DNA from: Shouchella rhizosphaerae
Lineage (GTDB): Bacteria > Bacillota > Bacilli > Bacillales > Bacillaceae_D
NCBI RefSeq assembly: GCF_900142675.1
Contig: NZ_FRBS01000003.1
Span: forward strand, 186,001 to 250,000
Direction: 5' to 3'
DNA length: 64,000 bases
This document shows positions 3,810-51,385 of this stretch, piece after piece. Every line of letters starts with the position of its first letter. The stretch's first letter is position 1. The notes below the pieces were generated by a model, which saw nothing but the letters and a program-made list of their open reading frames with translations, did no database searches and had not been told where the DNA came from. The position numbers and the translations under genes were made by a program.

Positions 3810-4211
3810 GTGCTCGTCCTAATCTTCCGGCTACTGATAGTAGCTACCATTGTTGTCATTTCCTATAGTTTAATAAAATATACATTGCAGCCTGAACGAA
3901 AGCTAAAAAAAGCCCAGAACGCGCATCAGTTTTATTTTTTGGACGATAGCACGAATGTGCGCAAAAATTTCCAACTCACATTTAAAGGAATTATGTTTGA
4001 AGGAGAGAAGTATTTAGAGGCGACAAAGGAATCATTTGAAGTCGTTCGCGTTTATATAAAAGCAGATACAGATAGACTCCGCGGCTTAACTTTTTCTGAC
4101 TTCCATTTTATTGAAGAAGAAGTCCTCTTACGTTATCCAGAGGCGACAATTGAATGGGCATCACCGATTAAAGAGTTTATGAAACAAGCAAAACAGCCTG
4201 AGGAGCGCTAG
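3810..4211 (+). CDS. ysdB: Sigma-W pathway protein YsdB
   Basis: A 133-residue protein with one N-terminal membrane segment (about 3-22, ILFRLLIVATIVVISYSLI-like) and a cytoplasmic domain containing KNFQLTFKGIMFEGEKYLE (about 52-70). This matches the YsdB family, described in B. subtilis as a sigma-W pathway protein of unknown biochemical role. The GTG start follows AAAGGGGG. The upstream sigma-W-type promoter agrees with the name. The last codons and stop lie inside a hairpin (4201-4224), after which a possible dispersed repeat copy begins. Confidence 0.88.
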   Translation: MLVLIFRLLIVATIVVISYSLIKYTLQPERKLKKAQNAHQFYFLDDSTNVRKNFQLTFKGIMFEGEKYLEATKESFEVVRVYIKADTDRLRGLTFSDFHFIEEEVLLRYPEATIEWASPIKEFMKQAKQPEER

Positions 4212-4224
4212 GATTAGCGCTCCT
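4201..4224 (+). terminator. Hairpin overlapping the ysdB stop codon
   Basis: Perfect nine-base arms AGGAGCGCT/AGCGCTCCT around a six-base loop. The 5' arm encodes the last YsdB codons and part of TAG. No T-run follows, so it is a terminator stem without a tail, or the tail was lost when the adjacent repeat arrived. Confidence 0.6.
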
Positions 4225-4345
4225 CCTGTACTGTCAACACATGTTCGCATACGTTGTGTTTTCGCAGCTCTTTGTTCCGACACAAACGTCAAGTTCTATT
4301 CGCTACTTCCCTTTCCTCGTCTAGCAAGTGAGATTGAGGATGGCG
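4225..4345 (+). repeat. Diverged copy (A) of the intergenic hairpin-associated repeat
   Basis: Read on the minus strand, this segment contains TAGACGAGG, GCGAATAGAA and AACGTATGCGA in the same order and spacing as CAGACGAGG, GCGAATAGAA and GACGTATGCGA in the copy at 25483-25606. Its end (CCTGTACTG) directly abuts the ysdB hairpin. Divergence is high, so this is the least certain copy together with that at 20090. Confidence 0.45.
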
Positions 4346-7554: not shown

Positions 7555-7735
7555 ACCTCCAGTGGATTTTGTGATGCAGCTAAAGCAATTAACGCGTCTA
7601 AACGTGAAAAAAGTGTGGACGCACGGCACCCACACTTAATCAGCATTTTAACAAACTGACGGTTTCTAACCTGGCAACCAATGTCGTACAGGTGAGAAGC
7701 GGGCGCTTCTTCTTGCTCTATTAACTAACACAAGA
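7555..7735 (-). promoter_or_regulatory. L20-type ribosomal protein leader of infC with attenuator
   Basis: The long infC 5' region on the minus strand contains an AAGTGTGG/CCACACTT stem (7611-7618 with 7630-7637) followed by a T6 run. Upstream are segments (GCGGGCTTCTCACC-like, near 7690-7710) that could form the alternative L20-binding fold. This is the arrangement of the L20 leader in Bacillus, where excess L20 favours termination. Fold details were not computed. Confidence 0.75.
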
Positions 7736-20089: not shown

Positions 20090-20191
20090 AACCTTACATA
20101 CGTCGCTCGTGAACCCCTATACTTTCCGCAATTCCACTCGCTTGCCAAGCAGCTTCTACCCGCCTGAGCGCTGTTGTCGAAAAATCGACAA
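20090..20191 (+). repeat. Diverged copy (E) of the intergenic repeat
   Basis: Plus-strand CATACGTCG, TGAACCC, TCCGCA, CACTCG and a final TTGTCGA-AAAA-TCGACAA palindrome (20174-20191) occur in the same order as on the minus strand of the 25458-25606 copy. That copy ends in GTTGTCGA-CTCTG-TCGACAAC. Divergent and shortened. It lies between the mqnC start and the dnaI terminator. Confidence 0.45.
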
Positions 20192-20194
20192 TAT

Positions 20195-20223
20195 AAAAAT
20201 CGGCGCTACATACTGCGCCGATT
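20195..20223 (-). terminator. Terminator overlapping the dnaI stop codon
   Basis: Arms AATCGGCGC/GCGCCGATT (20215-20223 with 20198-20206) with a T5 tail. The first arm encodes the Asn-Arg-Arg of the DnaI C-terminus and the TAG lies at the edge of the second arm. Confidence 0.85.
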
Positions 20224-21135
20224 TTGTCCGCCCACTTCTACGAATGTGGTAAAATGTTTGATCCTTTCCATAATCCGTTTTGCTTTTAGCCGTTCGATCC
20301 CGCCTTTTTCCGAATAGGCAAGCTGCTCTTCTAACTCATCGTAATCGTAATTCGAAGTAAACAACGTTGGCAGTTTCTCAGCCATTCTGTATTGAAGAAT
20401 GGGACCTAAAACTTCGTCACGGGTCCAAGCAGTTGTTGTTTCTGCTCCAATGTCATCTAGCATCAGAACAGGGGCTTTTCGGACAGCTTCCAGCTTTTCT
20501 TGAAAGGACCCATCGCCAATGGCTTGCTTCATTTCCCTAAAAAAGTCAGGTGTATAAATCAAATAGGATTGGATGTTTTTTGTTTTTAATTCATTTGCGA
20601 TAGCTCCTAATAAATAGGTCTTTCCTACGCCAAATTTCCCGTATAAGTATAGACCCTTTCCCTTTTCTCCTGGATTGGCTGATAAAGCAAATTCGAGCCC
20701 TTCACTTAGCGCATCTGCCCGTTCCTCATTTTGTTCCATATCGTCAAATGTTGCTTTAAGGATATCTTTAGGAATATAAAGCGACTGGATTAGCTGTAGT
20801 TTGGCTTGCTCAGCCTCTTGCTCCCGTTTTAGTTGGCATCGGCTATAAGAAATCTCAATGCTGCCTCTCTCTGTATAAAGCGCCGGTTGAAACCCTTTTA
20901 TCATATTCGGACAATGGTCTAACCCAGGGCAAGTTTGGCAGTTCCCCCGTTCCTTTTTAAACTCGTATAGTTTGCTAAGGGCACGGTCGATCATCGAGCG
21001 GGTTACATCAGGATGGTCTTGCAAAAAGGCTTGTACAATCGCGCTATCTAGCAGCTCCTGCCTTTGGCGCTCAATCCGTTTTTGCAGGCGCCCATCCTGG
21101 TCAAAAGCTTTCAGCGCCTGTTCTATTGATTCCAT
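20206..21135 (-). CDS. dnaI: Primosomal protein DnaI (helicase loader)
   Basis: AAA+ ATPase that loads the replicative helicase onto oriC with DnaB and DnaD. The 309 residues contain an N-terminal helicase-binding domain with zinc ligands (CQTC at 66-69, Cys75, Cys100), Walker A GKFGVGKT (166-173), Walker B VLMLDDIGAE and sensor segment LFTSNYDYDELEEQL. The start overlaps the dnaB end by 13 bases, the standard dnaB-dnaI operon. The 3' end is built into its terminator. Confidence 0.96.
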   Translation of the reverse strand: MESIEQALKAFDQDGRLQKRIERQRQELLDSAIVQAFLQDHPDVTRSMIDRALSKLYEFKKERGNCQTCPGLDHCPNMIKGFQPALYTERGSIEISYSRCQLKREQEAEQAKLQLIQSLYIPKDILKATFDDMEQNEERADALSEGLEFALSANPGEKGKGLYLYGKFGVGKTYLLGAIANELKTKNIQSYLIYTPDFFREMKQAIGDGSFQEKLEAVRKAPVLMLDDIGAETTTAWTRDEVLGPILQYRMAEKLPTLFTSNYDYDELEEQLAYSEKGGIERLKAKRIMERIKHFTTFVEVGGQNRRSM

Positions 21136-25423: not shown

Positions 25424-25456
25424 ACAAAAAAGACCGCCTATTCAATGGCGGTCTTA
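25424..25456 (-). terminator. Downstream terminator of the polA-mutM-ytaF-coaE unit (duplicate hairpin)
   Basis: On the minus strand AAGACCGCC/GGCGGTCTT is followed by T6. It is a near copy (22 of 25 positions) of the hairpin at the coaE stop codon 176 bases upstream, from which it is separated by the dispersed repeat. Confidence 0.85.
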
Positions 25457-25457
25457 A

Positions 25458-25606
25458 GTTGTCGACTCTGTCGACAACTGTCCAGACTGAAAGAAAGCGT
25501 TTGTCAGACGAGGCGCGAAACCGAGTGAAGATGCGAATAGAAAATGGGTTCATGAGCATATGAACGAGGTGAGCAACGACGTATGCGAGCGCTTGTCTTC
25601 AGGCTG
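25458..25606 (-). repeat. Intergenic hairpin-associated repeat, copy B (longest)
   Basis: The core is 25483-25606 (124 bp), bounded by CAGACTG and CAGGCTG in plus orientation, with an outer palindrome GTTGTCGA-CTCTG-TCGACAAC at 25458-25478. Internally the unit CGAGGnG...ACCGA/ACGA...ATGCGA occurs twice. It matches the copy at 51296-51361 at both ends and lies one base from the hairpin that overlaps the coaE stop. Confidence 0.75.
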
Positions 25607-25607
25607 T

Positions 25608-25632
25608 GACCGCCTATTCGTGGGCGGTCTTA
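25608..25632 (-). repeat. Duplicated terminator hairpin at the coaE stop codon
   Basis: GACCGCC/GGCGGTC arms contain the last coaE codons and TAG. The same 25-bp segment, with three changes, recurs at 25432-25456, where it is followed by the T-run. The two form direct repeats around the dispersed repeat. Confidence 0.8.
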
Positions 25633-38700: not shown

Positions 38701-38728
38701 AAAAAAGGAGAGGCTCACCTCTCCTTTT
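38701..38728 (-). terminator. Terminator between pyk and fxsA
   Basis: Minus-strand AAGGAGAGG/CCTCTCCTT arms (38717-38725 with 38705-38713) with a four-base loop, followed by T6. The dispersed repeat copy D begins at 38729 on its other side. Confidence 0.85.
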
Positions 38729-38791
38729 CAGACTGTAGACAAACGCTCGCATCCATCATGGTTTGCGAAGCATTTTCTATCAGCCAGTTTG
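38729..38791 (+). repeat. Intergenic hairpin-associated repeat, copy D
   Basis: A 63-bp segment bounded by CAGACTG (38729-38735) and CAGTTTG (38785-38791). Its first 24 bases match the reversed end of copy C (51338-51361) with a single change. It lies two to three bases from the pyk terminator stem. Confidence 0.72.
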
Positions 38792-50999: not shown

Positions 51000-51284
51000 A
51001 TGGGCCGTATTTTGATCATTATTGCGATTGCCGCATTTATGTTTTATGTAATTACCCGTGTCCGTGCCTTTCGTTTGCAGGATTCCTTGGAAAAACGGAT
51101 TCTCGAATCACGGGCCCGCTTGGCTCTAGGCGCCACGATGACTGCCCTTGGCGTTAACTTAGCCTTTTTTTCGTTTTATACCGCCATTCAACTCATTGTC
51201 GGAGCCGTCTTCCTTATATTCGGCCTCGCGAACGCCATTTACGGATTTCGCGCTCATAAACATTATGCAGCACAACTGGATTAG
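51000..51284 (+). CDS. ytpI: YtpI-like membrane protein
   Basis: A 94-residue protein with three membrane spans (about 3-19, 43-62 and 64-83) and a basic cytoplasmic loop (RVRAFRLQDSLEKRILESRARLALG). It matches the YtpI family. The ATG directly follows AGGAGGTTTAT. It lies divergently from nrnA and convergently to ytoI, with a repeat copy in the gap. Function unknown. Confidence 0.85.
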   Translation: MGRILIIIAIAAFMFYVITRVRAFRLQDSLEKRILESRARLALGATMTALGVNLAFFSFYTAIQLIVGAVFLIFGLANAIYGFRAHKHYAAQLD

Positions 51285-51295
51285 ACAACATCACT

Positions 51296-51361
51296 CAAAC
51301 TGACTGTAACGCTTGTCAGTCGAGGTGAGCCACGAAGATGCGAGCGTGTGTCTACAGTCTG
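51296..51361 (-). repeat. Intergenic hairpin-associated repeat, copy C
   Basis: A 66-bp segment bounded by CAAACTG and CAGTCTG. Internal CTTGTCAGTCGAGGTGAGC, CACGAAGATGCGAGCG and TGTCTACAG match both halves of copy B (25483-25606). It abuts the hairpin beside the ytoI stop codon. Confidence 0.78.
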
Positions 51362-51385
51362 GAGCTTGCCCTACTGGCAAGCTTC
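51361..51385. terminator. Hairpin after ytoI without a T-run
   Basis: AGCTTGCC/GGCAAGCT arms with a five-base loop, two bases past the ytoI stop. No T-tract follows on either strand. Repeat copy C begins where a tail would be expected on the minus strand. Confidence 0.6.

Follow-up and report, generated by a model that had tools for sequence, protein, structure and literature searches.

What kind of element is the short repeat that recurs beside terminator hairpins in the 64,000-nucleotide stretch of Shouchella rhizosphaerae DNA analyzed here (the window), and why does it lie where it does? A reading made from the letters only (the sequence-only reading) had named five places and proposed a non-autonomous, MITE-like or REP-like element. 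All five were matched by a profile built from 41 full-length copies, an input that includes the window copy at 25455-25606 and excludes the other four window places. E-values were 3.8e-42 for 25458-25606, 3.2e-7 for 38766-38728 (minus strand), 1.8e-6 for 20191-20105 (minus strand), 1e-5 for 51322-51361 (with 51283-51330 at 2e-4) and 3e-5 for 4330-4230 (minus strand), compared with a best of 0.056 in ten windows shuffled in 2-base blocks. The features concerned are the following:

25431..25454, no strand assigned: left copy of the duplicated terminator hairpin (AGACCGCC...GGCGGTCT); locus L087, 24 bp, 20 of them identical to the right copy
25455..25606, plus strand: MITE, full-length copy of 152 bp, from the profile match and target repeats
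25455..25478, plus strand: left IS1182-type end with the GTTGTCGAC...GTCGACAAC palindrome, by comparison with IS ends
25483..25508, plus strand: subterminal CAGACTG arm that pairs with the right end, from sequence and fold
25590..25606, plus strand: right terminal inverted repeat ending in CAGGCTG (consensus GTCTACAGTCTG)
25607..25630, no strand assigned: right copy of the duplicated hairpin, containing the coaE stop codon (25614-25616, minus strand)
38728..38791, minus strand: decayed copy beside a hairpin at about 38709-38728, downstream of the pyruvate kinase gene
51283..51361, plus strand: decayed copy with a hairpin at about 51362-51385 to its right, between convergent reading frames
4230..4330, minus strand: diverged copy beside a hairpin at about 4203-4225, between convergent reading frames
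20105..20191, minus strand: diverged copy near a hairpin at about 20199-20226

The unit as first proposed was too short; the full one extends left through the GTTGTCGAC...GTCGACAAC palindrome to 25455. Of the two CAGACTG-type motifs taken as its ends, one is the true right end, but the other is subterminal, because the true left end lies ~28 bp outside it. Likewise, a hairpin does adjoin the element as described, but the window copy is flanked by two, at 25431-25454 and 25607-25630, each a duplicate of the other. The commonest unit measures 154 bp and consists of GAGGTTGTCGACAAAGTCGATAACCGCCCT, then CAGACTGATAGAAAACGCTTGTC, a body of ~80 bp and then GCGAGCGTTTGTCTACAGTCTG; full copies range from 140 to 156 bp and carry no transposase gene. 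A single strand is predicted to fold into a small end hairpin and a long imperfect hairpin (−61.6 kcal/mol and z = −6.2 for copy L139; z = −4.9 for the window copy with its flanks). A longer subtype (L022, L026, L027, L291 and L311) has an extra internal hairpin of ~37 bp (GGTTTTCTTGCGCATGAAACGACCGTTTC), and short tandem arrays of units with a period of ~127 bp occur at G011:C28:47181-47549, G004:C4:531240-531480 and L320/L321 (G010:C1:1195842-1195989). Two Rfam families reached their gathering score in the window, neither at the repeats: a T-box leader (600-814) and a ribosomal protein L20 leader (7601-7720), both on the minus strand and both ordinary cis-regulatory RNAs.

The family extends well beyond chance matches in the genome. 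Allowing up to three mismatches, the 21-base right end occurs 61 times in the window's own genome and 89, 91 and 96 times in its sister genomes G010, G004 and G011. Elsewhere in the genus it was found in draft genome G006 (n = 25), G009 (n = 2), G008 (n = 1) and G012 (n = 1), with no match at this threshold in the remaining five of 13 genomes, and the reversed right end, used as a control, had no match in any of the 13. In the window's genome a 130-base query matched 42 times (of 61 candidates at first look, 40 were scored), and outside the genus a single 31-base match was found, in one of 27 genomes. Decayed copies are common, and the sites occupied differ between sister genomes. With gene context called from reading frames of at least 90 amino acids, the 41 full copies lie between convergent (n = 21), tandem (n = 17) or divergent genes (n = 1), with two unassigned.

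These 41 copies, from six genomes, also served as the test set for target duplications; they were drawn from 173 BLAST hits by retaining copies that matched over almost the entire unit and did not repeat one already included. In 35 of them, representing 31 distinct sites, the element lies between direct repeats of 20-30 bp, and each repeat is as a rule one complete terminator hairpin, commonly of the form AAG...CTT (16/35). The repeats are perfect in 18 cases and have at most one mismatch in 28. Self-complementarity about the repeat center averaged 0.84 and was at least 0.8 in 31 of the 35, compared with 0.25 in 7,000 length-matched random windows; sliding the frame by 1-4 bases lowered it to 0.21-0.26. 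No hairpin repeat was scored in the other six copies (L150, L159, L101, L075, L121 and L039); in L150, L101 and L121 a hairpin pair shifted by an indel is visible by eye, and these three were left out of the 35. Two copies in the window's genome (G000) have unusual structures. At L066 (G000:C10:141314-141467), the right-hand hairpin resembles the GGTTGTCG...CGACAACC palindrome at the element's own end; it looks as if one element had used an end of another as its target. At L082 (G000:C4:234918-234954), a minimal copy consists of two hairpin copies enclosing 37 bp of the left end; because the orthologous site in G011 and G004 (L153 and L148) holds a full-length copy, L082 looks like an internal deletion.

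Unoccupied sites in close strains give the state before insertion. Twelve predicted empty sites, made by joining the flanks with one copy of the repeat, were searched in the 13 genomes, and a contiguous match was found for ten (L162, L154, L117, L163, L140, L157, L137, L175, L177 and L164) but not for L142 or L179. At every one of the ten, inspection of the individual bases in one or more genomes showed one hairpin, and the L157 site in G004 is identical over 275 bases. In some matches (L140, L117, L164 and L177 in G000) small indels lie within or close to the hairpin, as diverged orthologues would be expected to show. The proposed association with hairpins was also upheld by a census covering all 89 right ends of G010, a single-contig genome (two of these stretches are identical): 80 are directly followed by a hairpin of −9 kcal/mol or better, compared with 23% of 580 random 45-mers taken from the flanks of loci in G000. 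A left end was recognized for 32 of the 89, with a scored duplication in 28 of these, and a hairpin is still abutted by 50 of the 57 right ends lacking a recognized left end.

A transposase with matching ends, which the sequence-only reading had envisaged, is encoded by a 1,537-bp insertion sequence in G010. The IS1182-family profile NF033551 had eight matches over its cut-off in this genome, five of which belong to this one IS, and none over the cut-off in six other genomes searched. The transposase scores 484.9 bits (cut-off 270) and carries the Pfam domains DDE_Tnp_1_6 and DUF772. The IS has the ends CAGCCTGTCGACAAAGTC and, reading inward from the right, CAGACCGTAGACAAAACG; the MITE ends (GAGGTTGTCGACAAAG and CAGACTGTAGACAAAC) agree with it at 13 and 14 of 16 positions, and agree with other IS at 14 of 16 (left end of L189) and 15 of 16 (right end of L188). 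Four of the five G010 copies are flanked by hairpin-wide direct repeats of 21, 22, 22 and 28 bp; the fifth, L170, has no hairpin repeat. Because its ends match IS1182-family IS both in a sister genome and in other Bacillota, the element is best read as a MITE that would be moved by a transposase of this family.

The window's own genome yielded no intact partner IS: all seven of its IS1182 matches are fragments at contig ends. As the partner's home it was rejected, since the four of these fragments whose right end was read represent another IS, with GGGACAAC-type ends. This second IS1182-family IS was seen at L183, at L018 and at contig ends of G000 (L165, L171, L176 and L178); at L183 and L018 its end directly abuts a MITE copy, as if it had inserted into the MITE. 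G004 and G011 hold many MITEs, yet only weak transposase matches.

A scan of named genomes with the G010 transposase gave 62 loci, most of them from Anaerovorax sp. IOR16 and the others from Halalkalibacter urbisdiaboli, Compostibacillus humi, Fictibacillus phosphorivorans, Oscillospiraceae MAGs and a few more sources. Both ends were found in 53 related loci, and with junctions allowed to shift by a few bases to maximize the repeat, 47 of these had a scored hairpin duplication (37 from Anaerovorax and ten from others); L192, L221, L244, L245, L246 and L248 had none, and L193 and L194 look like one duplicated insertion. In Anaerovorax sp. IOR16 an IS1182-family element has expanded heavily (L193-L241, ~40 loci, nearly all in hairpins), and these loci are a good natural data set for the target rule. 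Among six plasmid copies, two show a hairpin duplication (30 and 24 bp) and four do not. ISEfa7 and other plasmid-annotated IS1182-family members have a transposase ~60% identical to that of G010; no right end was recognized in the one ISEfa7 copy examined.

Taking all sets together and searching for the best hairpin without restriction, the dyad lies within half a base of the repeat center in 81 of 86 scored duplications (32/35 for the MITE, 4/4 for the G010 IS and 45/47 for the related loci), and in 81 of 84 analyzed when the search was limited to one base either side. Duplications are 19-36 bp long, and their length rises with the G+C span of the hairpin (Spearman's ρ = 0.58, Pearson's r = 0.44, n = 84), the relation being weak in the MITE set alone (r = 0.33). 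Because lengths vary over this range and the duplications are centered on the dyad, it is the hairpin that sets the duplication length. This is consistent with cuts made at both 5' feet of a hairpin or cruciform. Support for the earlier proposal of a non-autonomous MITE-like element at gene 3' ends comes from copy number and gene context as well as from the IS-type ends, the direct repeats and the empty sites. As an interpretation it was largely right, but it overlooked the duplication of the hairpin, the link to IS1182 and the position of the true left end.

Other explanations of these patterns can be weighed against the same data. The transposase could cut with a fixed stagger of ~25 bp and prefer terminator regions, so that a hairpin falls inside the duplication only for that reason. 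The MITE duplications do cluster, with 19 of 35 at 25-26 bp (mean 25.2, sd 2.1), but a constant stagger does not account for the dyad centering, for the loss of symmetry when the frame is slid by a single base or for the range of lengths in related IS, and we regard this explanation as unlikely. It is scarcely credible that the hairpins are instead part of the element: they occupy a constant place at both ends, as such parts would, but their sequence varies from site to site, and the idea is refuted by the unoccupied sister sites that already hold one hairpin.

Two further explanations, both highly improbable in our view, concern what keeps the copies in place. If insertion were random and selection retained only copies at gene 3' ends, as the suggestion that the element persists only there would have it, the finding of just one of 39 assignable copies between divergent genes could also be obtained; selection cannot, however, put both junctions symmetrically about a dyad, and acting alone it leaves the dyad-centered duplications unexplained. 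If the element were retained as a functional RNA or regulatory element and were not a mobile parasite, its very stable predicted fold and its position in probable 3' untranslated RNA would fit. Against this, occupancy varies among sister genomes, five genomes of the genus have no match, decay is frequent and the fold is a consequence of the inverted repeats. We therefore return to a MITE that is very probably mobilized by an IS1182-family DDE transposase choosing its target by shape and not by sequence.

This reading can be set beside known systems. REP and BIME elements with RAYT move by single-strand transposition and leave no target duplication, unlike the MITE described here; with long direct repeats and DDE-type IS ends, its copies do not bear out the 'REP-like' half of the original proposal. 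Long, variable direct repeats are listed in ISfinder for some IS1182 members. An IS1202-family origin, suggested by the long duplications, was rejected: profile NF033594, which we take to cover IS1202, matched none of the 13 genus genomes at E = 1e-10. The IS1202 group is reported to have similarly long and variable target duplications (16-28 bp, target unknown; PMC10132070); its transposase belongs to another family. Pneumococcal BOX, RUP and SPRITE and other bacterial MITEs are likewise small, non-coding, intergenic and present in many copies, and are set apart by their description, in which the excerpts of PMC10969869 mention no hairpin-wide duplication. IS1272 and TnSha1 of Staphylococcus are IS1182-family elements reported to target hairpins, often transcription terminators, without a sequence consensus (PMC4923244, PMC5678879). 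In the mode observed for IS1272, the hairpin is replaced or partly deleted with no target duplication (PMC5678879, PMC4923244), whereas here the hairpin is duplicated whole and empty sites hold one. Duplication of the stem-loop is pathway b in the model figure of PMC5678879, where it is offered only as a possibility for IS1272; our data are what that pathway predicts. Beyond this hypothetical pathway, the excerpted open-access literature (PMC10132070, PMC11187229, PMC4923244, PMC10969869, PMC5678879) describes no MITE or IS with a terminator hairpin as its target duplication.

Mechanistically, the transposase would join each 3' end of the element to one 5' foot of a palindromic terminator hairpin, the two joints lying on opposite strands, and gap repair would then leave a complete hairpin on each side, whatever the hairpin's length. 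The form recognized may be a cruciform or a single-stranded hairpin, the latter arising during replication or transcription, or possibly a bent duplex palindrome.

For the host, the arrangement of the flanks suggests why insertion would do little harm. MITE sequence (GAGGTT or CAGACTG) lies directly inside each repeat, so the inner flanks of the hairpins lack a T-tract and the natural one is found only on the outer flanks. At least four T or four A in six bases were present on one outer side in 26 of the 35 copies and on both sides in ten. The outer hairpin, as sole keeper of the natural T-tract, would preserve termination, and the MITE would be read as 3' untranslated RNA and be nearly neutral. 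In the window, the A-tract to the left of the hairpin at 25431-25454 is a T-tract for leftward coaE transcription; because coaE (minus strand) stops inside the right hairpin and this tract lies beyond the left one, its mRNA should end beyond the MITE.

The length of a target duplication is normally treated as a fixed property of the transposase, and in these elements it tracks the target's secondary structure. It seems to us probable, if less firmly so than mobilization itself, that a subgroup of IS1182-family DDE transposases, with the MITEs they move, read DNA shape and make an elastic duplication of one hairpin (19-36 bp seen), so that the terminator is rebuilt and insertion is nearly harmless in both directions of transcription; this would be natural evidence for a stem-loop-duplicating pathway so far only hypothesized. 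Such elements offer a genomic handle on whether DDE transposases recognize extruded hairpins in vivo, with each insertion recording a hairpin once open; they could also guide the design of a tool for terminator-directed integration. The same behavior explains the paired identical terminators of MITE-bearing genomes, and duplication of the terminator at each insertion could be the reason why a genome tolerates 60-100 copies.
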